Of a DNA stretch of 64,000 bases, positions 1,967-53,031 are shown piece after piece. The notes under the pieces were generated by a model. The model searched no databases. It saw only the letters and a program-made list of their open reading frames with translations, and was not told the DNA's origin. The stretch is from Neobacillus sp. OS1-2 (GTDB lineage Bacteria; Bacillota; Bacilli; Bacillales; Cytobacillaceae): NCBI RefSeq assembly GCF_030915505.1, contig NZ_CP133265.1, forward strand, positions 2,818,001-2,882,000, read 5' to 3'. Each line of letters opens with the position of its first letter. Within the stretch, counting starts at the first letter, position 1. A program made the position numbers and the translations under genes.

Positions 1967-3850
1967 ATGACATCTAAACCTGATAACTTTCATATTCTAT
2001 GGACCGTGATATTTTGTATATTTGTTTTAATAGAGATTTTCGACGTAATGGCTTCATTTCTTTTCCCTACTTTCAATATTTTTCGGTATTTCTCCGTTGT
2101 GTTGCTCCTTGGAACAATCCCTTATCTAATTGTCACAAGAAAAATGTGGATGAAAACGAACGAAGAACTTAAGCAAAATGAACAAAATTTAAATAATATC
2201 TTTGATACTCTTGATGTCGCTATTTGGTCCCATGATTTAAAGTCCAATACACTATTAATTACGTCAGGAATAGAAAAATTATATGGCTATTCATCAAATG
2301 ATTTTAATCATGACCTTCAACTGTGGAAAAAGGTGATCTATCCCGACGATTTACCATTTGTATCCGAGAGGGAACAGAAAGTTGCTAAAGGAGAAGCCGT
2401 CACAAATGAATATAGGATCATTAGACCTGATGGGGAAGTTCGCTGGATCTTAGATAGAGGTTTTCCAACGCTTGATCTTCAAGGGAAGCTTGAACATTTT
2501 AATAGTGTTTTATATGACATCACAGAACGAAAGATGACTGAAGAGACCATTCAGAGATTAGCCTATCATGATTCGCTGACTGGTTTACCGAATCGAAATC
2601 AATTTAGAAATCACCTGAACAAAGTGCTAAATCGAGCTTGTACGAATAAAATGCTGGCTGTACTATTTTTAGATTTGGACCGATTTAAAATTATTAATGA
2701 TACAAAAGGACATACAGTTGGAGATAGAATTCTGCAAAATGTTGCGAACCGGTTAGAATTGGCCGTTCGTGAGGAAGGGTTTGTGTCAAGGCAAGGTGGA
2801 GACGAATTTATTATTTTACTTGATGAAACGGATAAAGAAAAAGCTGCAATAGTAGCCCAGCGTATTCTATATGAATTTTCTAAACCCTTGGAGGTAAATA
2901 ACCAGGAATTTTTCGTTACACCTAGTATTGGAATCAGCCTCTATCCAACAGATGGAAAAGATGAGGAAACCTTAATAAAAAATGCAGACACAGCTATGTA
3001 CCAGGCGAAAGAACGTGGGAAAAATAATTTCCAGTTCTATTCCTCTAATCTAAATGGCCAATCTGTCCGGAAGATGGAGCTTGAAAATGGGTTAAGAAAA
3101 GCGCTGGAAAATGATCAATTGACGCTTCATTATCAACCGCAGATGTCCTTGGTAACAGGGGAATTAGTGGGCATAGAAGCGTTAATTCGCTGGCAGCATC
3201 CCGAGCATGGGTTTATCGCACCTTCTGAATTTATTCCACTGGCGGAGGAAACAGGTCTGATTGTTCCAATCGGAAAATGGGTCTTGTGGAATGCTTGCCA
3301 ACAAAGAAAGGCTTGGGAAAATGCTGGACTTTGTGATGTTCCAATAGCCGTCAATGTTTCGGTTCGTCAATTTGAGGATGACCATTTGATCGAATATATT
3401 TCAACCGTATTGGATGAAGTGGGCCTGAATGCAACCCAATTAGAATTGGAAATCACCGAAAGTATTATGCAAAACTTAGAGAATTCAACGATTATTCTAA
3501 ATCAGTTGAAAGAACTTGGTGTATGGCTTTCCATCGATGATTTTGGAACGGGTTATTCCTCGTTGAGTTATTTAAAATATCTACCGATTGATAAAATAAA
3601 AATTGATAAATCCTTTGTGGATGATATCCTTTATCATTCAAATCAAGGTGTGATGGTAAAAACGATTATTGATATGGGCTTAAATTTGAATTTTACCGTT
3701 ATTGCTGAGGGGATTGAGACAGATGAGCAACTTTCCTTTCTAAAGGAAAATGCTTGTAAGGTTGGTCAAGGCTATTTATTTAGCAAACCTCTCCCTGCCA
3801 TTGAAATGCAAAATTTCCTTATTAATAGAAAAAGTGGTATCCTCCTTTAA
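1967..3850 (+). CDS. Membrane PAS-GGDEF-EAL cyclic-di-GMP protein
   Basis: 627 residues. Two N-terminal membrane helices (about residues 8-65) are followed by a PAS/PAC sensor domain (about 75-190), a GGDEF domain with intact RQGGDEF, and an EAL domain with GIEALIRW, ITESIMQN, DDFGTGYSS and KIDKSFV, all with catalytic-type residues. Both synthesis and hydrolysis of cyclic-di-GMP are therefore possible; in tandem proteins of this type one activity often dominates, and the sequence does not say which. The ATG at 1967 is preceded by AAGGAG. A TACAAT -10-like hexamer lies about 30 bp upstream. The gene stands alone, and its terminator overlaps the stop codon. Confidence 0.93.
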   Translation: MTSKPDNFHILWTVIFCIFVLIEIFDVMASFLFPTFNIFRYFSVVLLLGTIPYLIVTRKMWMKTNEELKQNEQNLNNIFDTLDVAIWSHDLKSNTLLITSGIEKLYGYSSNDFNHDLQLWKKVIYPDDLPFVSEREQKVAKGEAVTNEYRIIRPDGEVRWILDRGFPTLDLQGKLEHFNSVLYDITERKMTEETIQRLAYHDSLTGLPNRNQFRNHLNKVLNRACTNKMLAVLFLDLDRFKIINDTKGHTVGDRILQNVANRLELAVREEGFVSRQGGDEFIILLDETDKEKAAIVAQRILYEFSKPLEVNNQEFFVTPSIGISLYPTDGKDEETLIKNADTAMYQAKERGKNNFQFYSSNLNGQSVRKMELENGLRKALENDQLTLHYQPQMSLVTGELVGIEALIRWQHPEHGFIAPSEFIPLAEETGLIVPIGKWVLWNACQQRKAWENAGLCDVPIAVNVSVRQFEDDHLIEYISTVLDEVGLNATQLELEITESIMQNLENSTIILNQLKELGVWLSIDDFGTGYSSLSYLKYLPIDKIKIDKSFVDDILYHSNQGVMVKTIIDMGLNLNFTVIAEGIETDEQLSFLKENACKVGQGYLFSKPLPAIEMQNFLINRKSGILL

Positions 3851-42446: not shown

Positions 42447-42733
42447 TTATCTCCTTAAGTGGTATGATTTTATTATACTTTTCTGAAAGGGAAAAAAGAA
42501 AGCCTGCATGGTAAATGAAAGGCCGCTTAATTTCCTTAAAGGGAGCTATACCAACCGCTACGTATTGTTTGTCTTCAAATTGAAACAAATCTGACATCTT
42601 TTTAAAAAATTCATCTGTTAGAATCGATATAATTGGGACTTAAAATCTGTACATACGGCGAATAGTATATGGAATAATTATGACTCTTTTCCATAAGAAT
42701 GACATAGAGTGGTTGCAATTGGAGGGAAAGAAA

Positions 42734-45487
42734 ATGACGTTAGAAAAGCAATTAATACAAAAGACGTATTATAAAATGTTCATAAATGAGCATGAAGATA
42801 TGCATCCGATTCGCGTCCTAGGTGAAGTGTTTCAGGAGGAGGCAAAACAGGATCTACCTGATTTATCGACTATTCGCTTTGCGCAGGGTGAAGTCTACTT
42901 TCATCACAAAGATTTTGAAACCGCCATATTTAAATGGGAAAACATTATTAATGAACTCGAGCCGTGGGCAAAGAAGAACACGGGTGATGCTTATTATGAG
43001 CTTGGGCTGTTATCTGCAGCTGAGGATATCTATTGTGCGATCGCATCAGAGGATCCCACATTAAAGACAGAAGTGGCCTTAAAGTTATTTTCTCTATATA
43101 TTGAGCGCGGGAAGGTAGAGGCAGCCGTTTCAACGATAAAAAAGACAATCGTCGCTAACCCAGATTATCCGAACGTCACTGAAATCGCCCGCAACTTTTT
43201 TGAAGAACGACAGGATTGGGAAAATGCGGTTGAATTGGCAGTCACTGAGGCAAAACGGACAGATTCATTGGAATGGTTTGAAATTCTGAACACGTATATA
43301 AAAAAGGGTGTAACCAAACACCATGCGCCAAGCTATTTCTCCCAAGCGTTAATCCTATTATTTACTCTTGATAAAAGAAAGTTTGAGGAGCTTGTTTCGT
43401 CACTGTGGGATAGTTACAAAAATGAAGAATCCTATTTTACTTGGTTAAGTGAAATCAACCATCTTTTATTAAATCTTGAACTCAGCCGAAATGAAAACTG
43501 GTCGGAGCTTTCAAGGCTTCATAAGGAACATTATTTTAGTTTAATTGAGGGAAGGTACTTTATTAAGGTACTGCAGGATTTTATTCCAGACTTATTAACC
43601 AATTGGTTTAGGTTGGCGGATGATTCAAATGTGGTAGTAGCATCGGCTGCTGTGCTTTCATGGAATGAGCTATTTCCAGCAAGTATCAGTATGTCAATTG
43701 TAAGTGAAGCAGAAAAATTGATTAGTTTAACGGAAACGGACATGGATGAACTTAATGAGTGCCTTTTATTGCTTGATTCCATCATGAGTTGGGCAAAGAA
43801 GCATGATATGGGGGAGAATAATCACATCAAGTGGTTTGTCCGCCAATTAGTCGATTTTGACACACAGCATCTTTTTATTACCGGATTAAGTGGTACGGGA
43901 AAATCCACTTTTGTGAATACCGTTCTTGGAGAGGATCTGCAGGATAGTCCAACCTCTTCCATGGTGATGTTTAAGCATGCGCCTTCGTTAGAAATCACAG
44001 AAATCACGGATAGAGAGGTTACTAGCTTACCAGAATTTGCTGATTTTCAAGAACGCATGGATCGCCGTCGGAATGCACTGGAATCCATCATTGAATTTAA
44101 CCAGCCGAATGGTTTTTTACAGGAGAATAAGGTTGCTTTCATTGATACCCCTGGATTGAAGGGAAACCCCCATTATGATCGCTATGAAGTATTGAAAAAC
44201 TTGCATGTTGCTGATTCCGTTCTCTTTGTCCTTGATGCAAATGCACCGTTTACGGAAAAAGAGCAGATGGCGCTTAAGCAGATCCAGGAGTTAGCACCAG
44301 ATATACCGGTTCATTTTCTATTGAGTAAAATGGATACAATTGTTGGTGAGCGTGAAGCTCTTCGCATTTTTGATGAAACTAGGGTCTCGATTCATTCCTA
44401 TTTACCTGATGCAAGGGTGTTTGCTTTTTCATCGCAATACGAAGGTGGACAGCAACAGGAATTAACCGCGTTTATTCATTCCATCAAGAAGACAAGAAAT
44501 ATTGAGGATAAGCGTCTAGCAAAGCTGTTGTATTTTATTCGCACCACGATTGCCAGCCTGCTGCAAAAACGGATTGATGTAGAAAATCAGCTGGTTGAGT
44601 CGATTCGGTGGAACGAAGAAATGCTGATGAAGTTAAATGGAGCAGTAAACCAACTGAAGGATACCGAAGTACAAAAAACACAGACAATCGCGAAATCGTT
44701 CCGAGCTATTAAGGAAACGATAGAAAAAGATTTATCAGATAGTGTTCGGAAAATGCTTCAAGAGTGTTCCTCATTAATTAAGGAAGATAGCAACTTCAGT
44801 AAAATTCACTTAGAACTCAATGATGAAATGAATCGAAAAATCCAAGCCTATTTGGAACAAACCGTTATGCCGAAATTTTACCGTTCGCTGCAGGAATGGA
44901 TTGAACATGGCAAAGAGGAGCTTGAGCAAAGTCAGGAATTTTTGAATGAGATGGGTGACGGCTTTAATCATATGTATGGCGAAGAGCGGCTCAAGCTTGA
45001 ATGTGATTTTAAGGTGCTTGACGATTGGCGGCGTGATACTGATCGAATGACAAGCCGTTTTCAGCTTGAAAGCATTAATATTCTGCTCCGCCGTACACCA
45101 GCCCAATTTTTATTAAAAAGCGCCGGGAAACTATTTGGCGCCCTATCGCAAAATAAGGCAATGCTTTTTAATAAATACAAAGCCTTTGTGGAGAATGAAG
45201 ATTATTCTGAAGCAATTGCTGCGGTTAATAAGCAATTTTTTCAGCCGTTTGAGCTGTTTGAAAAATCATTGGAGCGCGACATCACTTTGTTTTTCAGGAG
45301 TCCACTGAATGTATTAAATGATTCTGTCGAAGAGGCACGCGAGGGTATTCAGACAAACCAAGAAATGCTGAACAAAATGAACACCAATCCAGAAATGTTC
45401 CGTGATCCTCTTACACTGTTTGATGTAAGACTGCGTCAGTTCGAATGGATGACAATCGCCGGAAAAGGAATGCAAACAATCTACTGA
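42734..45487 (+). CDS. Large dynamin-like GTPase with N-terminal TPR-like region
   Basis: 917 residues. Residues ~1-370 are helical repeats of TPR character (FAQGEVYFHHKDFETAIFKWENII, DAYYELGLLSAAEDIYCAIA). A GTPase domain follows: G1 GLSGTGKSTFVN, G2-like SPTSSM, G3 DTPGLKG, and a G4 of LSKMD instead of the usual NKxD. The C-terminal ~350 residues are long helices as in dynamin stalks; no membrane span is obvious. Start ATG 42734 with GGAGGG upstream. It is a single-gene unit. Bacterial dynamin-like proteins act in membrane remodelling, stress tolerance and phage defence; which applies here is unknown. Confidence 0.8.
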   Translation: MTLEKQLIQKTYYKMFINEHEDMHPIRVLGEVFQEEAKQDLPDLSTIRFAQGEVYFHHKDFETAIFKWENIINELEPWAKKNTGDAYYELGLLSAAEDIYCAIASEDPTLKTEVALKLFSLYIERGKVEAAVSTIKKTIVANPDYPNVTEIARNFFEERQDWENAVELAVTEAKRTDSLEWFEILNTYIKKGVTKHHAPSYFSQALILLFTLDKRKFEELVSSLWDSYKNEESYFTWLSEINHLLLNLELSRNENWSELSRLHKEHYFSLIEGRYFIKVLQDFIPDLLTNWFRLADDSNVVVASAAVLSWNELFPASISMSIVSEAEKLISLTETDMDELNECLLLLDSIMSWAKKHDMGENNHIKWFVRQLVDFDTQHLFITGLSGTGKSTFVNTVLGEDLQDSPTSSMVMFKHAPSLEITEITDREVTSLPEFADFQERMDRRRNALESIIEFNQPNGFLQENKVAFIDTPGLKGNPHYDRYEVLKNLHVADSVLFVLDANAPFTEKEQMALKQIQELAPDIPVHFLLSKMDTIVGEREALRIFDETRVSIHSYLPDARVFAFSSQYEGGQQQELTAFIHSIKKTRNIEDKRLAKLLYFIRTTIASLLQKRIDVENQLVESIRWNEEMLMKLNGAVNQLKDTEVQKTQTIAKSFRAIKETIEKDLSDSVRKMLQECSSLIKEDSNFSKIHLELNDEMNRKIQAYLEQTVMPKFYRSLQEWIEHGKEELEQSQEFLNEMGDGFNHMYGEERLKLECDFKVLDDWRRDTDRMTSRFQLESINILLRRTPAQFLLKSAGKLFGALSQNKAMLFNKYKAFVENEDYSEAIAAVNKQFFQPFELFEKSLERDITLFFRSPLNVLNDSVEEAREGIQTNQEMLNKMNTNPEMFRDPLTLFDVRLRQFEWMTIAGKGMQTIY

Positions 45488-45537: not shown

Positions 45538-45679
45538 AAGTTTCGACTTTGAGAATTGTCTAGCTGCTGCGCCTAGGGGCTCGGGGTCATAAGCCAATCA
45601 GTCAAGAAGGTTAAAGTGCAACCTTCTCGCCTGCTCGTCTTATGCCTGTCGCCCCTGAGCAAGGCGCTTCCGCTTTTCT
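45538..45679. repeat. ~142-bp dispersed imperfect inverted-repeat element, copy 2
   Basis: Left end AAGTTTCGACTTTGAGAA, right end GGCGCTTCCGCTTTTCT (45663-45679, identical to copy 1 at 20775-20791). The inner part contains its own hairpin (AGAAGGTT...AACCTTCT). Located between the dynamin-like gene and the ECF sigma promoter. Confidence 0.82.
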
Positions 45680-45683
45680 AATC

Positions 45684-45748
45684 TTAAGAAATTTTTAAGA
45701 TTGTCTTAAATGAATGTTAAGATTTTTCGATTAGTATTAAGATACTAT
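45684..45748 (+). promoter_or_regulatory. 11-bp direct-repeat operator and -10 of ECF sigma gene
   Basis: Hexamers TTAAGA (45684), TTAAGA (45695), TTAAAT (45706) and TTAAGA (45717) are spaced exactly 11 bp, the geometry of OmpR/PhoP-family response-regulator sites. TACTAT at 45743-45748 is the likely -10; no consensus -35 exists, so activation is expected. Confidence 0.78.
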
Positions 45749-45798
45749 TTAAATTCACTGGACGAGTGTACATTTTTGAAAGGATGGTAGGGGGGATA

Positions 45799-46317
45799 AT
45801 GGTGAATAAGATTGATTTTTCAGAGGTATATAGAATGTACTATAAACGTCTTTTTCATATAAGCTTTTCTATCACTAGGGATTTGCATCTAGCAGAGGAT
45901 GTCGTTCAGGAAACGTTTATTAAAGCGATGAAAAAGGTTGAAACAATCGAAGAAGAAAAGAAGATGGGTGCCTGGTTATCCGTCATTGCTACCAGAACGG
46001 CGATTGATTATGTCCGAAGCGAACGGAAAAAGCCTGCAACCTTGATGGAAGAGGATATGCTTGAATGCTTGGGAAAGGAAATGATGCAAAACGTCGAGGA
46101 GGAAGTGGAACTAGCGAGTTTTCAGGAGCAAGTGAATGCCGCTATTGCAACGCTCACCACCGAATACCAAGCGGTGCTTAATCTTAAGCTTTTGCATGGT
46201 TTAAAGGAGTATGAAATTGCCAGCATCCTCGATATCAAGCCAAGCACGGTGAAAACGAGAATCTACCGAGCAAGAAAACAACTAAAATTACTGTTTCTCA
46301 AACAGCTAACGGCTTAA
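45799..46317 (+). CDS. ECF-type RNA polymerase sigma factor
   Basis: 172 residues. Region 2 (YYKRLFHISFSITRDLHLAEDVVQETFIKAMKKV) and region 4 (LKEYEIASILDIKPSTVKTRIYRARKQL) are complete. Start at ATG 45799 after AGGGGGG; GTG 45766 lacks a site. No anti-sigma gene follows, and the next genes are small enzymes, so control may be transcriptional through the upstream direct-repeat operator. Of the SigX/YlaC/SigV kind by length; no closer assignment is possible. Confidence 0.9.
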   Translation: MVNKIDFSEVYRMYYKRLFHISFSITRDLHLAEDVVQETFIKAMKKVETIEEEKKMGAWLSVIATRTAIDYVRSERKKPATLMEEDMLECLGKEMMQNVEEEVELASFQEQVNAAIATLTTEYQAVLNLKLLHGLKEYEIASILDIKPSTVKTRIYRARKQLKLLFLKQLTA

Positions 46318-46544
46318 ATATATGCAGTAGAACCGGAAAGTCCTTCATTGCTTGATGAAGGACTAATCTTGATGGATTTCCCACTGGGAGGTTCATCATC
46401 GTCCTTATGAAGGACAAAACCCGTCAATTCCTCCTTAGAATTGTCCTTCATTTAGGTGATAAAGGGGAATCCACAAAGAGTTTTTTTCCAAAACTTTCTA
46501 TGGTAGAATTGTGGGAAGTATATTTGAAAATCGGAGGAATAAGG

Positions 46545-46910
46545 ATGAAAAGTGCTAGTCCATACATATTTGTAGATAATTGCGAGAAAGTTATGGAATT
46601 TTACCAAAATCTATTTGGCGGGGAAATGACGAATATTCAAAAAAGCGATGACGGTAAGTGTTTGCATGCTGAACTTCATCTTGGTAACAGTATCATTCAC
46701 TTTTCAGATACATTCGGCAATACCCATGTCGGAGATAACGTGCGAATCAGCCTGGAATGTGAAAGTGATGAAGAAATTAGAAGAGTATATGATTTGCTTA
46801 GCCAATCTGGAAAAGTTACTTTCCCATTGCAAGAAACATTTTGGGGAGCCATGCACGCAAATCTAGTTGACCAGTTTGGTATTGGCTGGCTGTTAAATTT
46901 TTCAAAGTGA
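46545..46910 (+). CDS. PhnB-type VOC protein
   Basis: 121 residues, a single glyoxalase-fold module: PYIFVDNCEKVMEFYQNLFGGEM and SIIHFSDTFGN, ending WGAMHANLVDQFGIGWLLNF, typical of the PhnB-like (DUF1338/YjdN) branch. Substrate unknown. Start ATG 46545 directly after GGAGGAATAAGG; the longer frame back to 46407 has no ribosome site. 18 bp before the SRPBCC gene, so probably an operon. Confidence 0.83.
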   Translation: MKSASPYIFVDNCEKVMEFYQNLFGGEMTNIQKSDDGKCLHAELHLGNSIIHFSDTFGNTHVGDNVRISLECESDEEIRRVYDLLSQSGKVTFPLQETFWGAMHANLVDQFGIGWLLNFSK

Positions 46911-46928
46911 ATGAAAGGAAGTACGTGA

Positions 46929-47366
46929 ATGAACAACCTTACAAAAATGAAAATAAATAAACCAGCGAAGGATGTATTTGAAGCTTTTGTTGATCCAGCA
47001 AAAATCGGGAACTTTTGGTTCTCGTCCAGTTCGGAAAGATGGGAAAAGGGCAAGACGATTACGTTGAAATATGAGGAATACCAGGCTCAAGTAAGTATAA
47101 ATATAATTGAAATCGAAGAAAATAAAAAGGTTGTTTTCCGCTGGGGCGCAAATGGCGAAGGGCATATTGTGACAATAGCGATGAAAGAACTTGATCACTC
47201 GGCAACCATAATTGAAATTACCGAAGAAGGATTTAATGAAAATGAGGATGAGCTAATCCTGCAATTGATTGATAATAAAGAAGGCTGGGTTTTTATGTTA
47301 ACCTGCTTAAAGGGATATTTAGAATTTGGAGTGAACCAATTAAGAGGTGGATTAGTAAAGGATTGA
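46929..47366 (+). CDS. SRPBCC / AHSA1-type small-molecule-binding protein
   Basis: 145 residues with the START-like fold: KPAKDVFEAFVDPAKIGNFWF at the N-terminus, central beta strands (KKVVFRWGANGEGHIVTIAM) and the long C-terminal helix (NKEGWVFMLTCLKGYLEFG). Ligand unknown. Ribosome site GAAAGGAAG precedes the ATG. Probably co-transcribed with the PhnB-type gene. Confidence 0.85.
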   Translation: MNNLTKMKINKPAKDVFEAFVDPAKIGNFWFSSSSERWEKGKTITLKYEEYQAQVSINIIEIEENKKVVFRWGANGEGHIVTIAMKELDHSATIIEITEEGFNENEDELILQLIDNKEGWVFMLTCLKGYLEFGVNQLRGGLVKD

Positions 47367-47370
47367 CATG

Positions 47371-47393
47371 AAAAGAGCCAGTTGGCTCTTTTT
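47371..47393. terminator. Bidirectional terminator
   Basis: 9-bp perfect stem AAAAGAGCC / GGCTCTTTT, shared by the SRPBCC gene and the convergent exported protein. Confidence 0.85.
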
Positions 47394-47404
47394 CAGTCCT
47401 CCCC

Positions 47405-47860
47405 TTAATCCATGTCTACTTTGTCTAATGGAAATTCTTTAACGACATTCACACCATCTAAAATAATCAAAGTCGAATCAAAAGCCAATTCTTTCATCTC
47501 TTTTAAGTGAGCACCTTTTTTAATTTTATATTCAACGTGGAATGAGCCTTCATGCCCGGAGTCGATGAGTCCGGTACTCCCAGAACCCCACGGAATCATC
47601 TTAATAAACTCGCTCCCTTCAACTAACTCCATTTTTGATGCTAACTCTTTGTTAGGTCGTACTACCACTTCTATTCCATAGTTATGTTGGCCGGGGTAAT
47701 CAAATTCACTTTTAAATGGAGTGTTACCAGTATTTTTGATTTTAATATCGTAACGTAGAATTCTCTCCGCTTTAATGATGGTAGTATCAATATGGGTAAT
47801 AACCAACTGATTCGCCCTATGAAATCCAGTGAGTGGAAGCAATGAAATAAGTAAGAACAC
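47405..47860 (-). CDS. Exported protein of unknown function, start unclear
   Basis: About 150-158 residues: a signal-like hydrophobic segment (FVFLLISLLPLTGFH), then a beta-rich domain (RYDIKIKNTGNTPFKSEFDYPG; GSGSTGLIDSGHEGSFHVEYKIKKGA) resembling extracellular Ig-like modules. No ATG/GTG/TTG with a ribosome site exists: GTG 47860 has none and would lack the basic n-region. GAAAGGG (47895-47889) is 7 nt before an ATC at 47881 and would give IIRKLAFVFLL. Either a non-canonical start or a damaged 5' end. Confidence 0.5.
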   Translation of the reverse strand: MFLLISLLPLTGFHRANQLVITHIDTTIIKAERILRYDIKIKNTGNTPFKSEFDYPGQHNYGIEVVVRPNKELASKMELVEGSEFIKMIPWGSGSTGLIDSGHEGSFHVEYKIKKGAHLKEMKELAFDSTLIILDGVNVVKEFPLDKVDMD

Positions 47861-47998
47861 AAATGCTAACTTTCTGATGATAATACAGCCCTTTCTACTT
47901 GATATGATTTCCGTGTTTATTATTTATGATTATTGCCAGGATTATACATATACTGGTGTAGGGCTTAGCAATGCAAAAATGTGCTTAATTGGAAGGAA

Positions 47999-48088
47999 TT
48001 CTACAAAATTTATGAGGAATTCTACAATTGAAAAGATTTTTCTACAAAAATGAAACTTATTCTACAAATTAGAGAAACAATTCTACAA
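47999..48088. repeat. Five-copy 20-21-bp array, core TTCTACAA
   Basis: TTCTACAA begins at 47999, 48020, 48040, 48060 and 48081 (steps 21, 20, 20, 21). Core differs from the 9.3-kb array but the period is the same. The 395-bp gap 47861-48255 otherwise contains no supported gene. Confidence 0.88.
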
Positions 48089-48255
48089 AAACTGGAAACG
48101 TCCTTCCAAATAGGACCGCTTTTCCTTCATCTCTTGGCACAAAATTCATGGTGACCTCCAAATACACCTTTTAAGCCACAATTGCACAAAAGATGTAACA
48201 ATCACTACCACAACCCGATTGTTATGAAGTTGATAATGTTGGTATGGACGCTATA

Positions 48256-48762
48256 ATGAACTATGAGGTGATTAATATCCTGGACATCCTATTTTGGGTT
48301 ATTATTATTGCGTGTTTTATCTTTAGTTTTGTCGGGTTGATTTATCCGATTATCCCCTCAGTGTTGTTGATTTGGGTTGGCGTGGTGTTATATCACTTTG
48401 GGGTAAATTCACATGAGCTTTCCTGGATCACATGGACTATGTTAGGGTTATTGACTATTCTCTTATTTTTAGCAGATTATTTAGTGAATCTTCACTTTGT
48501 CGATAAAGCTGGAGGATCTAAGTGGGGGACGAGGGCTGCAACAATTGGATTAATTGTTGGCAGCTTTGTGATACCACCTTTTGGCGTGATTGTTGTACCA
48601 TTTTCTTTAGTCCTACTAGCGGAAATGTTGCAAAAGAAAACATTCCAAGATTCGATTAAAGTGGCGTTTGCTACTTTAATTGCCTTTTTTAGCGGCACCT
48701 TCGCCAAAGCGATCATTCAGTTAATAATGATTGGTGTTTTTGTATTTGGTGTGATTATTTAG
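48256..48762 (+). CDS. DUF456 family membrane protein
   Basis: 168 residues, four to five membrane helices. FVGLIYPIIPSVLLIWVGVVLYHF and GSKWGTRAATIGLIVGSFVIPPFG are the DUF456 signatures (B. subtilis YqgC-like). Function unknown. The start is uncertain: ATG 48244 and 48256 have only weak sites, whereas GAGGTG at 48265-48270 is followed only by ATC/CTG codons at usable distance. Followed closely by the ABM-domain gene. Confidence 0.78.
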   Translation: MNYEVINILDILFWVIIIACFIFSFVGLIYPIIPSVLLIWVGVVLYHFGVNSHELSWITWTMLGLLTILLFLADYLVNLHFVDKAGGSKWGTRAATIGLIVGSFVIPPFGVIVVPFSLVLLAEMLQKKTFQDSIKVAFATLIAFFSGTFAKAIIQLIMIGVFVFGVII

Positions 48763-48777
48763 ATTTGGGTGGATACC

Positions 48778-49077
48778 ATGATAGTGGAAGCGGCAATACT
48801 TCAGGTTAAACACGGGATGGAAGTTGAATTTGAGGAGGCGTTCCGACAGGCATCGGCAATTATCTCTTCGATGAAGGGGTACGTTTCCCACGAATTACAG
48901 CGTTGTATGGAAGTTAACGGGAAATACTTGCTGCTGGTAAAGTGGGAAACCCTAGAAGACCATACGATTGGATTCAGGCAATCTAGTGAGTATCAAGAAT
49001 GGAAGAAACTATTACATCATTTCTATGATCCATTTCCAACAGTGGAGCACTTTGAGAAAGTTCGGTTAGTGGATTAA
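48778..49077 (+). CDS. Antibiotic-biosynthesis-monooxygenase (ABM) domain protein
   Basis: 99 residues, one dimeric alpha/beta-barrel module: AAILQVKHGMEVEFEEAFRQAS, GYVSHELQRCMEVNGKYLLLVKWETLEDH and FRQSSEYQEWKKLLHHFYDPFP. Such proteins can be heme-degrading or quinol oxygenases, but no heme-site residues can be assigned with confidence. Start ATG 48778 after GGGTGG; 15 bp after the DUF456 gene. Confidence 0.83.
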   Translation: MIVEAAILQVKHGMEVEFEEAFRQASAIISSMKGYVSHELQRCMEVNGKYLLLVKWETLEDHTIGFRQSSEYQEWKKLLHHFYDPFPTVEHFEKVRLVD

Positions 49078-49113
49078 GCCAAAAGGATTGAAGTTAAATC
49101 AGAAAAGAAAACT

Positions 49114-49147
49114 GGTGCAACTCTTGAATATGAGGGTTGCCCTTTTT
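49114..49147 (+). terminator. Intrinsic terminator
   Basis: Stem GCAAC.CT / AG.GTTGC with T-run, after the ABM gene. Confidence 0.7.
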
Positions 49148-49257
49148 ATTGAATAAAATAAATGGCAGGTTATTTTCTATGGATCACCGAATATATAAGG
49201 AATAAAATTGGTTGGTCTTTTAAAAAAATATGTCCGTAATCATTCTGGAGGTGCCTT

Positions 49258-49545
49258 ATGCAGTTATTATTTTGGCCGTGTACGATTGCCTCACTAATCC
49301 TCTCCATTATTGCCATAAATATTAGGAATCCCAAACTCCTTGTTCTATCTTCATTCCTTCTATTACCTATGTCGTTATATCTGGCGGCCACACCACGTTT
49401 CCACATATGGGGGCTGATTTTTCCACTCCTTTATCTGGGTGCGGCAAAATTCATAACAAAGAAAGTGATTTGGTTGGCCACTTTGGTGATTATTCCCAAT
49501 TTTTTATTAGTCGGTTGGCTGGGATTAGCTGTTTTAACTCAGTAG
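49258..49545 (+). CDS. Small three-helix membrane protein, unknown
   Basis: 95 residues, almost entirely hydrophobic, with three or four membrane segments (LFWPCTIASLILSIIAI, LLVLSSFLLLPMSLYLAA, WLATLVIIPNFLLVGWLGLAVL). No recognised motif. CTGGAGGTG precedes the ATG. It has its own terminator (49558-49600) before the two-component genes. Confidence 0.68.
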   Translation: MQLLFWPCTIASLILSIIAINIRNPKLLVLSSFLLLPMSLYLAATPRFHIWGLIFPLLYLGAAKFITKKVIWLATLVIIPNFLLVGWLGLAVLTQ

Positions 49546-49557
49546 TTTCTTGGTAAT

Positions 49558-49600
49558 CCTTTTTTCTTGCTTTAGAACGTAGCAAGAAAAGAGGATTTTT
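49558..49600 (+). terminator. Intrinsic terminator before two-component genes
   Basis: 14-bp stem (one G-T pair; arms 49558-49571, 49581-49594), 9-nt loop, then ATTTTTC. Confidence 0.85.
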
Positions 49601-49652
49601 CAGTGAGAATATGGAAATTAACCATATTGGAATGAAAGAAGTGGAGGATATA

Positions 49653-50351
49653 ATGAAACAAAGAATATTATTAGTAGAAGACGATGCGGCCATCAGCGAG
49701 ATGGTAAAAGGTCAATTTACCAGAGAGGGATTCGAGGTCGTGCCTGCGTTTGATGGGGAAGAGGCGCTAGAGGTTTTTGCAAACGACACATTTGATTTGA
49801 TTCTCCTTGATTTAATGCTGCCAAAGCTGGATGGAATGGAATTTTTAAAAATCATCCGAGAGAAAAGCATGATACCAGTTCTGATTATGTCAGCAAAGGA
49901 TGGGGACTTAGATAAAGCGTTGGGTCTCGGCTTTGGTGCGGATGATTATATTGCCAAGCCATTTTCGATGATCGAGCTAACGGCTAGAGTGAAGGCGGCC
50001 ATCAGAAGGGCGACCCACTATTCACGAACAGAACAAAAGCAGGAAGTAAATGTGCTGATAGTCGGTGAATTGATACTTGATCTTGATAATTTCTCCTTAC
50101 TTAAAAATGGAAGTGACATCAAGCTAACGGCAAAAGAGTTTCATATCCTAAAACTATTTATCTCACATCCGAGCAGGGTCTACACCAAGGCACAAATTTA
50201 TAGTTTGGTATGGGAAGATGAGTATTATGGTGATGAAAATGTGATAAACGTACATATGAGAAGATTACGGGAGAAGATCGAAGATGACCCATCCAAACCA
50301 AAGTACATTAAAACATTATGGGGTATCGGCTATAAACTTGGGGAGTTTTAA
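49653..50351 (+). CDS. OmpR-family response regulator
   Basis: 232 residues. Receiver domain with acidic pair VEDDAA, phospho-Asp in LILLDLMLPKLDG and Lys in YIAKPFS; C-terminal winged helix (LTAKEFHILKLFISHPSRVYTKAQIYSLVW, NVHMRRLREKI, IKTLWGIGYKLG). Start at ATG 49653 after GGAGGATATA. Three nt before the kinase and upstream of a BcrA-type transporter, resembling the YcbL-YcbM-YcbN-YcbO arrangement. Candidate binder of the TTAAGA 11-bp repeats at 51335 and 45684. Confidence 0.94.
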   Translation: MKQRILLVEDDAAISEMVKGQFTREGFEVVPAFDGEEALEVFANDTFDLILLDLMLPKLDGMEFLKIIREKSMIPVLIMSAKDGDLDKALGLGFGADDYIAKPFSMIELTARVKAAIRRATHYSRTEQKQEVNVLIVGELILDLDNFSLLKNGSDIKLTAKEFHILKLFISHPSRVYTKAQIYSLVWEDEYYGDENVINVHMRRLREKIEDDPSKPKYIKTLWGIGYKLGEF

Positions 50352-50354
50352 ACG

Positions 50355-51290
50355 ATGGTTATTTTTTTTCTCATGGTCATAATCGGATTGGCAGCCCTTA
50401 ATTTCTATCAATATAATGTGAGAAAAAATGAAAAGAGAAATTTCACGTACATACACAGAAAACTAAAGCAGATAATCGATAATCAAACGGATGAAAAGCT
50501 GTTGGTGCATACGGGGGATGAGGAATTAAAGCAGATATTAATCGAAATTAACCGTCTCCTAGAACATAATCAAAAAATGATGGCCAGCTACAATAAAATG
50601 GAGGCATCGATGCGGAAAATGCTCTCTAACATTTCGCATGATTTAAAAACACCGTTGACTGTTGTGCTCGGATATATCGAGATTGTGTTGAATAATCCCA
50701 ACAGAACAAACGAAGAAACCAAGGAACTTTTGCAAAAGGTCAACGTCAAAACCGTTGAAGTTTTAGACCTAATTAAGAAGTTCTTTGATTTAGCAAGGCT
50801 TGAATCCGGAGATAAAGATTTACCACTTACAAGGGTGAACATGAACGAAGTTTGCCAGAAAAATATTTTACAGTTTTATGAGGTTTTATCCGCAAAAGGC
50901 TTTGACGTCGTGATTGAGCTCCCAGAAACAATTCAATATGCACTTGGAAATGGGGAAGCACTTGACCGAGTTTTGAACAATTTGCTCTCCAATGCCATTC
51001 AATATGGTGGAGAAGGGAAAGTCTTGGGTCTGACACTCAGAAGTGATGAACAGTATGTTTTCATTGACATCTGGGACAAAGGAAAAGGAATTAGTGAGCT
51101 ACACAAGGATTTAGTATTTGAAAGAATGTACACACTAGAGGATTCGCGAAATAAATCTTATCAGGGAAGCGGCCTTGGCCTTACCATAACTAAACGCCTT
51201 GTGGAAAAGATGGGTGGCCACATTTTTCTAAACAGCAAACCCTATGAAAAAACAACCTTTACCGTGCAAGTAAAGCGAATTACATATTAA
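50355..51290 (+). CDS. Sensor histidine kinase
   Basis: 311 residues. A single N-terminal membrane helix and no extracellular sensor domain, then HisKA with phospho-His in SNISHDLKTPLTVVLGY, N-box LDRVLNNLLSNAIQYGG, G1 DIWDKGKGI and G2 GSGLGLTI. The minimal sensor suggests signal input from membrane partners such as the neighbouring transporter, as in bacitracin-type modules. Confidence 0.93.
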   Translation: MVIFFLMVIIGLAALNFYQYNVRKNEKRNFTYIHRKLKQIIDNQTDEKLLVHTGDEELKQILIEINRLLEHNQKMMASYNKMEASMRKMLSNISHDLKTPLTVVLGYIEIVLNNPNRTNEETKELLQKVNVKTVEVLDLIKKFFDLARLESGDKDLPLTRVNMNEVCQKNILQFYEVLSAKGFDVVIELPETIQYALGNGEALDRVLNNLLSNAIQYGGEGKVLGLTLRSDEQYVFIDIWDKGKGISELHKDLVFERMYTLEDSRNKSYQGSGLGLTITKRLVEKMGGHIFLNSKPYEKTTFTVQVKRITY

Positions 51291-51297
51291 AACAGCT

Positions 51298-51330
51298 AAG
51301 GGTGCCTCAGGATAATGAGTTGCCCTTTTT
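51298..51330 (+). terminator. Terminator-like hairpin after kinase gene
   Basis: AAGGG / CCCTT with inner CTCA / TGAG and an internal loop, then TTTTT. Separates kinase and transporter transcripts. Confidence 0.65.
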
Positions 51331-51334
51331 TAAC

Positions 51335-51388
51335 TTAAGAATTTCGTAAGATTTGATTAATAAAAAAGAAAACTCTGCTGACTAGAAT
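51335..51388 (+). promoter_or_regulatory. 11-bp direct-repeat operator and -10 of BcrA-type transporter
   Basis: TTAAGA (51335), GTAAGA (51346), TTAATA (51357), exactly 11 bp apart, then TAGAAT -10 at 51383-51388 with no consensus -35. The last hexamer starts 26 bp before the -10, the same as in front of the ECF sigma gene. Confidence 0.78.
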
Positions 51389-51422: not shown

Positions 51423-52346
51423 ATGAGCTACATGATTAAAACAAACCAACTGACCAAAGCTTATAAGGGCAAGGAAGTGGTTTCAAATGTCAATATGAGG
51501 GTGAAAAAAGGCGAAATATACGGGTTTCTTGGTCCGAACGGAGCAGGGAAAACAACGATCATGAAGATGCTGACAAATCTAGTAAAGCCAACGAGCGGTG
51601 AAATTGAAATATTTGGTGAAAAGCTTACCAACACCTCTTATGAAGTGTTAAAGCGGATGGGCAGCATTATCGAATATCCTGTTTTCTATGATCGGTTAAC
51701 GGCCCGCGAAAATCTCGAGCTACACTGCGAATATATGGGGTATTACGACAAAAAGGCGATTGATACGGCCCTTGATTTAGTTAAATTAAAGGATATTGAA
51801 AATAAATCAGTGAAAGATTTCTCACTTGGAATGAAACAGCGCCTCGGAATTGCACGCGCCATTATTACCAAGCCGGAGCTTTTAATCCTAGATGAACCCA
51901 TTAATGGTCTCGATCCGGTGGGGATTAAAGAACTGCGTGATTTATTCCATATGCTCTGCCGTGAATATGGGATTACGTTGCTAATCTCGTCACATATCCT
52001 TGGTGAAATGGAGCAAATTGCCGATACTATTGGCGTGATCAGTGACGGCCAATTAATTAAAGAAGTTTCGATAAACGAAATCCACGAACAAAATACCGAA
52101 TATATTGAACTCGTGGTTAACGATGTGAAAAAAGCGTTTTATGTCCTTGACGAAATTCTACACCTGACAAATTTTAAAGTGGTCGGCGAATCATGTTTTA
52201 GAATCTACGATAAGGGAGCTTCACAATCAGAAATATCGAAAGCATTAATTTTAAACGACGTTATGATCGAGGAAATCAATAAAAAGAATCATTCACTTGA
52301 GGATTATTTCCTAACTTTAATCAATGGGGGCGGGATCAGTGCGTAA
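51423..52346 (+). CDS. BcrA-type ABC transporter ATPase
   Basis: 307 residues. Walker A GPNGAGKTT, signature FSLGMKQRLGIARAI, Walker B LLILDEPINGLDP and H-loop LISSHILGEMEQIA; a ~100-residue C-terminal extension as in BcrA/lantibiotic-immunity ATPases. With the downstream permease it probably expels or protects against a peptide antibiotic. GAAGGGGAG precedes the ATG. Confidence 0.93.
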   Translation: MSYMIKTNQLTKAYKGKEVVSNVNMRVKKGEIYGFLGPNGAGKTTIMKMLTNLVKPTSGEIEIFGEKLTNTSYEVLKRMGSIIEYPVFYDRLTARENLELHCEYMGYYDKKAIDTALDLVKLKDIENKSVKDFSLGMKQRLGIARAIITKPELLILDEPINGLDPVGIKELRDLFHMLCREYGITLLISSHILGEMEQIADTIGVISDGQLIKEVSINEIHEQNTEYIELVVNDVKKAFYVLDEILHLTNFKVVGESCFRIYDKGASQSEISKALILNDVMIEEINKKNHSLEDYFLTLINGGGISA

Positions 52347-53031
52347 ATTAATCAGTCTTGAAATAAAGAAGTTTAAACTATTTTCCTATCTAAAAGCAGT
52401 TGGTATTGCAAATTTAGTTATCATGGGGTTGCTCTGCTTGATCTATTTTATGGAAAAAAGTGAAGGGACGCTGGCTTTTGGCAGCTATGAAATGGCTTTT
52501 GCCGCGTTTAACAGTATTATCCGGCCCACATTTATCATCTTTGCTGCGGTGCTTATTTCTAGAATCATCATTGATGAGTATAAGAGCAATTCGATTACGC
52601 TCATGTTTATGTATCCCATTAGTCGAAAAAAAATCATGATTGCCAAGTTAGTGATTGTTGCTTGCTTTACCTTTTTTACGATTGTGTTATCCAATTTAAT
52701 TATTGGCAGTTTATTTTATTTAGTCGATTCCTATTTACATTTTATGCCGAAGGAATTGACCGCCGAGGTCTTAAAAAATGGCTTGATTCAAATGATTCTT
52801 GAAGCCATTGCGTCGGCTGGTATGGCATTAATCCCGCTTTATTTTGGAATGAGAAAAAAATCTGTGCCTACCACCATCGTCACCGCCATCATTATGGTGT
52901 CGCTAACATCGTCTTCAGCGGACGGCGTTAATCTCTTTGCCTTTATTGCGATCCCAATAGCCTTAGCTCTAATTGGCTGTCTTATTGCCTACCTTTCCTT
53001 TAGGAATGTAGAAAAAGTCGATATCAATTAA
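52339..53031 (+). CDS. BcrB/ABC-2-type permease
   Basis: 230 residues, six membrane helices, ABC-2 lantibiotic-type permease (ISLEIKKFKLFSYLKAVG at the N-terminus, FAAVLISRIIIDEYKSNSITLMFMYPISRKKIM in the first loop). Start GTG 52339 with a GGGGGCGGG site; it overlaps the ATPase end by 8 nt. Final gene of the transporter operon. Confidence 0.88.
   Translation: MRKLISLEIKKFKLFSYLKAVGIANLVIMGLLCLIYFMEKSEGTLAFGSYEMAFAAFNSIIRPTFIIFAAVLISRIIIDEYKSNSITLMFMYPISRKKIMIAKLVIVACFTFFTIVLSNLIIGSLFYLVDSYLHFMPKELTAEVLKNGLIQMILEAIASAGMALIPLYFGMRKKSVPTTIVTAIIMVSLTSSSADGVNLFAFIAIPIALALIGCLIAYLSFRNVEKVDIN

Follow-up and report, generated by a model that had tools for sequence, protein, structure and literature searches.

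An array of TTAAGA-type repeats ahead of an ECF sigma factor gene in Neobacillus sp. OS1-2 is probably an operator left behind by a deleted two-component system

The 64,000 bp window analyzed here (Neobacillus sp. OS1-2, contig NZ_CP133265.1, positions 2,818,001–2,882,000) carries two arrays of TTAAGA-like hexamers, one ahead of an extracytoplasmic function (ECF) sigma factor gene (sigma below) and the other ahead of a BcrA-type ATP-binding cassette (ABC) transporter. A preliminary description of this DNA read the two as a shared operator, through which the only OmpR/PhoP-type response regulator (RR) in the window (gene at 49653, the "window RR") would induce both genes. Comparison with related genomes points to a different arrangement. 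The sigma array is probably the orphaned operator of a two-component system (TCS), RR1 and its histidine kinase (HK) HK1, whose genes were deleted in this lineage; sigma would now most likely be activated by RR2, a paralog of RR1 whose gene lies outside the window, and the transporter array would belong to the local RR-kinase pair. The features of the sigma locus, in window coordinates, are as follows.

42680–45487, + strand: dynamin-like GTPase gene, the left synteny anchor
45684–45722, + strand: sigma-promoter operator array, with a strong pair (45684 and 45695), a weak half-site (45706) and a strong half-site (45717; GTTAAGATTT, 45716–45725)
45732–45737, + strand: putative sigma-promoter -10, TAGTAT, 10 bp past the last NTTAAG
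45749–45798, + strand: deletion scar (left edge approximate)
45799–46317, + strand: ECF sigma factor gene, its start set by alignment with genomes G060 and G027

In relatives RR1, HK1 and sigma lie in that order in a single gene run; RR1 is an OmpR-family regulator 42% identical to the window RR, and HK1 is a kinase of ∼750 residues. HK1 lies directly upstream of sigma in 14 of the 16 genomes of the genus that carry sigma at 56% identity or more (among the 14, G083 has only the end of HK1 on its contig, G027 has truncated RR1 and HK1 genes, and HK1 of G023 was inferred from an RR1 gene at the right distance), and the two that lack the pair are both genomes of the window's species. In G060, whose sigma is 91% identical to that of the window, the order is dynamin gene, RR1, HK1, sigma and then the same next genes as in the window; RR1 and HK1 also lie between the dynamin gene and sigma in G077, G006 and G067. 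When the window is aligned with G060 (L247), the scar consists of ∼20 bp that match the 3′ end of HK1, followed by the old HK1-sigma spacer and ribosome site. Synteny and scar together show that RR1 and HK1 were deleted between the leader and sigma in the window's lineage, so that the promoter and operator now stand directly ahead of sigma. Neither gene was found elsewhere in the genome, where the best matches are 64% (RR2) and 47% (HK2) identical. The same gene run and operator are present in Bacillus sp. CHD6a and Sutcliffiella horikoshii, whose sigma proteins are ∼50% identical; these are two of the four relatives at ∼50% among the best 80 of 527 sigma relatives, a list without close kin, and the other two lack the RR1-HK1-sigma run. 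Sigma matches of 46–54% within the genus, being paralogs or distant kin, lie outside the 16; six inspected loci of this lower identity, two of them in named genomes, have no RR1-HK1 alongside sigma. With regard to a possible anti-sigma gene next to sigma, the adjacent ORFs (46407–47366) were judged by eye alone, and a profile scan covered eight other window proteins. The dynamin-like gene of G060 (L247, 16888–14084) showed an in-frame TAG in the codon comparison.

The repeats themselves read as first described. The sigma-promoter hexamers are TTAAGA (45684), TTAAGA (45695), TTAAAT (45706) and TTAAGA (45717), and the transporter-promoter hexamers TTAAGA (51335), GTAAGA (51346) and TTAATA (51357), with a step of exactly 11 bp throughout both arrays. 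The hexamer triple has five matches in the window with up to three mismatches, against 0.23 expected; four of these overlap one another on the sigma array, counting both strands, and the fifth is the transporter array. The four-hexamer array, at up to three mismatches in total, is found at a single place, which reads on both strands, compared with 0.0 per strand for 40 simulated windows, and the expectation for the three-hexamer array in simulated windows is 0.15. The exact pattern CTTAAGA-N6-TAAGA has two sites in the 4.73 Mb genome, namely these two promoters, and with one mismatch allowed it has 38 matches, compared with 56 for the reversed control; the looser pattern being no commoner than its control, only the exact pair stands out and the weaker pattern is uninformative by itself. 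A scan for sigma-70 promoters gave one match per promoter region, near the shuffled expectation (minus strand, 45720–45691, across the sigma array; plus strand, 51287–51316, upstream of the transporter array); neither match uses the -10 of its array, and thus no -35 fits either -10, as had been noted. Tandem direct half-sites ∼11 bp apart followed by a -10 with a poor or missing -35 are the layout of promoters activated by OmpR/PhoB-type regulators, and both arrays look like OmpR-type RR sites, as proposed, although of two families.

The two families emerge from orthologous promoters, at which the repeats are widely conserved; a lack of such conservation had been named as grounds for rejecting the proposed circuit. 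The first class comprises 40 promoters (22 of RR1 and 18 of RR2). Eight divergent RR1 loci (G015, G008, G016, G049, G039, G059, G069 and G081) and the RR2 of G078, a duplicate of that of G000, were omitted, and the RR1/RR2-like genes of G053, G054 and G056 and paralogs of 52–62% lie outside the set. The second class comprises 19 transporter promoters gathered via the RR gene, some in other families of the order; co-occurrence of RR and transporter site is thus true by construction, and the evidence lies in the conservation of the site. The site of G062 was inspected outside the 19, and the contigs of G029 and G030 end before the promoter. Neither class contained the window's own two sites or those of G078. 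Offsets are counted from x, the start of the first hexamer of each array. All 40 RR1/RR2 promoters have a pair of half-sites at x and x+11, the last repeat at x+34 and TANNNT at x+49, 15 bp past the start of that repeat; the second half-site is TTAAGA in 37, with TTAAGT, TTAAGG and TTCATA once each. The base at x+11 is T in 40/40 of these promoters versus G in 18/19 transporter promoters, and the TTAAGATTT element typical of RR1/RR2 sites is present at none of the 19.

The window's sigma site has the T at x+11 and the TTAAGATTT element of the RR1/RR2 family; of the transporter-family features it shares the x+48 spacing and lacks both the G at x+11 and the A-rich spacer. Relative to the RR1 promoter of G060, window positions 45683–45744 carry five substitutions and have lost one base, between the second and last repeats, with the three strong half-sites unaltered; the offsets are consequently x+33 and x+48 in place of x+34 and x+49. 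These features suggest that the sigma site was once the promoter of an RR1-HK1-sigma operon. The perfect 11 bp register of four repeats is derived, by way of the lost base, and it was seen only in the two genomes of the window's species, the other 40 promoters having the last repeat at x+34. The invariant place of TANNNT also indicates that the sigma -10 is TAGTAT at 45732 and not, as first assigned, the TACTAT at 45743, which has no counterpart at the 40 promoters. The preliminary description had placed the last hexamer 26 bp before the -10 at both promoters. The transporter -10 (51383) holds in 19/19 orthologs, but reassignment of the sigma -10 makes the common 26 bp a coincidence, and this shared spacing is ruled out; the distance from first hexamer to -10 is 48 bp at both window promoters.

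Conservation and gene order suggest the ancestral arrangement: RR1, once phosphorylated, would have bound the NTTAAG direct repeats that lie immediately ahead of a -10 lacking a -35, and would have switched on RR1, HK1 and sigma together as an operon. Control of the sigma factor would thus have been exerted via its synthesis; the lost system most likely regulated itself. The old promoter and operator would now drive sigma. RR2 (G000:C1:2755637–2756320, 62 kb before the window) forms with HK2 a pair paralogous to RR1-HK1, and its operon carries an operator of the same type as the sigma promoter. We infer that RR2, the surviving paralog with the same operator on its own operon, is the most likely present activator of sigma. 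RR2 is a separate clade (support 100/100), and its recognition helix (ENTV[TS]VHIRKIREK in 19/19 RR2 proteins) is one residue off that of most RR1 proteins (ENTVAVHIRKIREK in 27/29), whereas that of the window RR (ENVINVHMRRLREK) differs at several. The window RR has 39 matches in the genome. Of the 61 genomes of the genus, at the thresholds used, 19 carry RR2, 21 RR1 and 19 the window RR. G060 carries only RR1 of the first two, and the window's species only RR2; this reciprocal presence suggests a regulator swap, in which the lineage gained RR2-HK2 reading the same operator, RR1-HK1 became dispensable, and the deletion placed an unchanged sigma under a sensor ∼108 kb away, a history that is possible but distinctly less secure than the control of sigma by RR2 itself. 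Adjoining the RR2 operon of the window's genome is an ORF that resembles, by eye, a group II intron reverse transcriptase, and the operator-RR2 interval holds a phospholipid/ornithine-lipid N-methyltransferase-like gene (below cut-off) (L106:940–2292 and 2500–3081).

Several observations weigh against RR2 as the heir of an RR1 operator. The x+33/x+48 spacing of the sigma site is that of the transporter promoters (-10 at x+48 in 19/19) and of 0/40 RR1/RR2 promoters. An 18-mer profile prefers the RR1/RR2 class by 3.6 bits, a margin that falls to 0.1 bit without the three closest relatives in training, and the two classes overlap in leave-one-out score (-0.7 to 12.4 versus -13.4 to 2.9). The second half-site is degraded in seven of the eight omitted divergent RR1 loci and also in G064 among the 40; in G039, another omitted locus, the pair is intact and the last repeat is not clear. 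The RR1 sequences form no single clade in the unrooted tree (two changes), RR2 lies ∼108 kb from sigma, and its gain is read from patchy presence alone.

At the other promoter the relevant features are as follows.

49653–50351, + strand: OmpR-family response regulator gene (window RR)
50355–51290, + strand: short histidine kinase gene, partner of the window RR
51335–51351, + strand: putative transporter-promoter operator, CTTAAGA-N4-CGTAAGA (conserved pair, C at 51334; third hexamer, 51357, weakly conserved)
51383–51388, + strand: transporter-promoter -10, TAGAAT (x+48 in 19/19 orthologs)
51423–52346, + strand: ABC transporter ATPase gene, BcrA/lantibiotic-protection type (best NCBIfam model TIGR03740)
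52342–53031, + strand: ABC-2 type permease partner gene

Across the 19 orthologous promoters the hexamer at x is TTAAGA in 18 and TTAAGG in one, and that at x+11 begins with G in 18 (GTAAGA 15, GTAAGG 2, GTAAGT 1); the scoring of -10 sequences slightly favors x+49, and this class came out at x+48 nonetheless. The third hexamer of the array as first drawn is the part that did not hold up, being TTAATA in 11, TTAAGA in one and other forms in seven. The window site has the G at x+11, the A-rich spacer and the -10 at x+48 of its family. Conservation of this operator beside the RR gene supports the local RR as regulator of the exporter, in keeping with the proposed link between a regulator of this type and the transporter. 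The transporter array would then be a distinct site, similar in general type, owned by the local pair, which, judging from the family, would most likely switch on the ABC exporter in response to a membrane-active antibiotic sensed by the kinase. Two-component/ABC cassettes of the YcbLMNO and BcrAB type serve in peptide-antibiotic defence, and the window has the same row of RR, short kinase, BcrA-type ATPase and ABC-2 permease; it differs in that its ATPase, part of a putative exporter, scores 259.4 bits, below the 309.75-bit cut-off of the lantibiotic protection model TIGR03740. Just 5′ of the RR gene (49610–49626) lies an inverted repeat, TATGG-N7-CCATA, of which G005 has a near copy; TTAAGA repeats were not seen at this place in the window.

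One local regulator for both promoters is not what the comparison favors, as each of the two site families is kept without the regulator of the other: 13 RR1 promoters stand in genomes that lack the window's RR (10 in the genus, and G045, G051 and G038 outside it), and G005, G012, G022, G028, G070 and G084 retain the transporter site without RR1. The window RR had been singled out from the window alone, and a closer candidate, RR2, lies outside it. The window RR could still have taken over the orphaned operator and now induce both exporter and sigma: its gene is 3.3 kb away, the half-sites at the two promoters are of the same general type and are the genome's sole exact CTTAAGA-N6-TAAGA sites, the one-base deletion gives the sigma promoter transporter-type x+48 spacing, and paralogous RRs with similar sites are reported to cross-regulate in Lacticaseibacillus (PMC10858260). 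Such a takeover is nevertheless unlikely, given the T retained in the second half-site, the TTAAGATTT element and the different recognition helix. About equally improbable is that the sigma operator survives as a relic that no regulator now uses, with sigma weakly or constitutively transcribed, or drifting. RR1 and HK1 are indeed gone from the genome, and G027, a second lineage losing the RR1-HK1 sensor, keeps the operator despite its truncated RR1 and HK1 and lacks both RR2 and, at E 1e-75, the window RR, which indicates that operators can outlive their regulators for a while (in L070, 6663–8958, RR1 matches to residue 156 and HK1 from residue 127, and operator and sigma gene are intact). Yet the three strong half-sites are the same in the window and G060 at a synonymous divergence (dS) of ∼0.45 in sigma, the ratio of nonsynonymous to synonymous divergence (dN/dS) between the two is 0.106, and the sigma ORF is intact in both genomes of the species at 97.6% identity, within the 97.4–100% of its neighbors. 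Chance arrays in A+T-rich intergenic DNA, which the A+T-rich hexamer and the one-mismatch counts might suggest, are highly improbable and are refuted by position-exact conservation at 40 and 19 promoters against expectations of 0.0 to 0.23 per window.

TTAAG direct repeats with five-base spacing are a known class of RR site. The CiaR operator of streptococci is NTTAAG-N5-TTTAAG (PMC3091779), and the pattern is also present in probes bound by BAS0540 of Bacillus anthracis, among them that of its own promoter (PMC4938410). The sigma and RR1/RR2 sites resemble both in their NTTAAG-N5 direct repeats and in having the regulator's own promoter as a candidate target; moreover, the 10 bp from the last NTTAAG to the -10 is the distance used to find CiaR promoters (PMC3091779). 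They differ in having an upstream strong pair plus a downstream half-site with a degraded partner, and the regulators are VanR-like by best NCBIfam model, below cut-off. The PmrA box, CTTAAG-N5-XTTAAT (PMC3973317), shares the half-site core, the spacing and, presumably, tandem binding by an OmpR/PhoB-type RR; regulator and phylum are different. Transcriptional control of ECF sigma factors by a TCS is likewise known, from SigE/CseBC, SigQ/AfsQ and the predicted group ECF234 (PMC8999054). These too have an RR-kinase pair beside the ECF gene; however, regulators and sigma form one run here, and in the window's species the regulator genes have been deleted. A narrow literature search found no case of an ECF gene without its own TCS genes yet with their operator, and an equally narrow search of YcbLM and regulator-replacement literature found nothing on such a sigma operator.

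The genome-wide follow-up covered 36 one-mismatch places via 34 distinct 18-mers (one 18-mer, present at three places, was scored once). Last repeat and -10 are both in place only at the RR2 promoter; the reversed reading of the sigma array has the last repeat and no -10 in place. Five of the 34 are followed within 260 bp by an ORF that has a ribosome site, one of these being another TCS-linked BcrA-type ATPase at 2222 kb. There (G000:C1:2222784; L300:4285) lies a further RR/BcrA-type ATPase/permease/kinase cassette, with CTTAAGG-N4-CTTAAGA and a third repeat in the ATPase promoter. At G000:C1:2669088 (L301:4606, minus strand) TTTAAGAAGAATTTAAGA precedes an ORF of ∼290 amino acids, a few kb from an RR-kinase pair at 2673–2675 kb. 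An intergenic repeat element (45553–45680) adjoins the sigma operator upstream; its terminal 17-mer has 20 copies in the genome, and the reversed control has none. In G005 (L082) and G014 (L088) an element like it lies against the transporter operator.

G060 (before) and the window (after) make a genome pair for a stress-response branch that loses its sensor and keeps its operator, and the pair offers a simple test of whether paralogous RRs with the same site can replace each other. TTAAG direct repeats lie at no fewer than three promoters of this genome, linked to three different TCSs, so that a shared motif is no proof of a single regulator; a common repeat motif alone does not tie two promoters to one RR.

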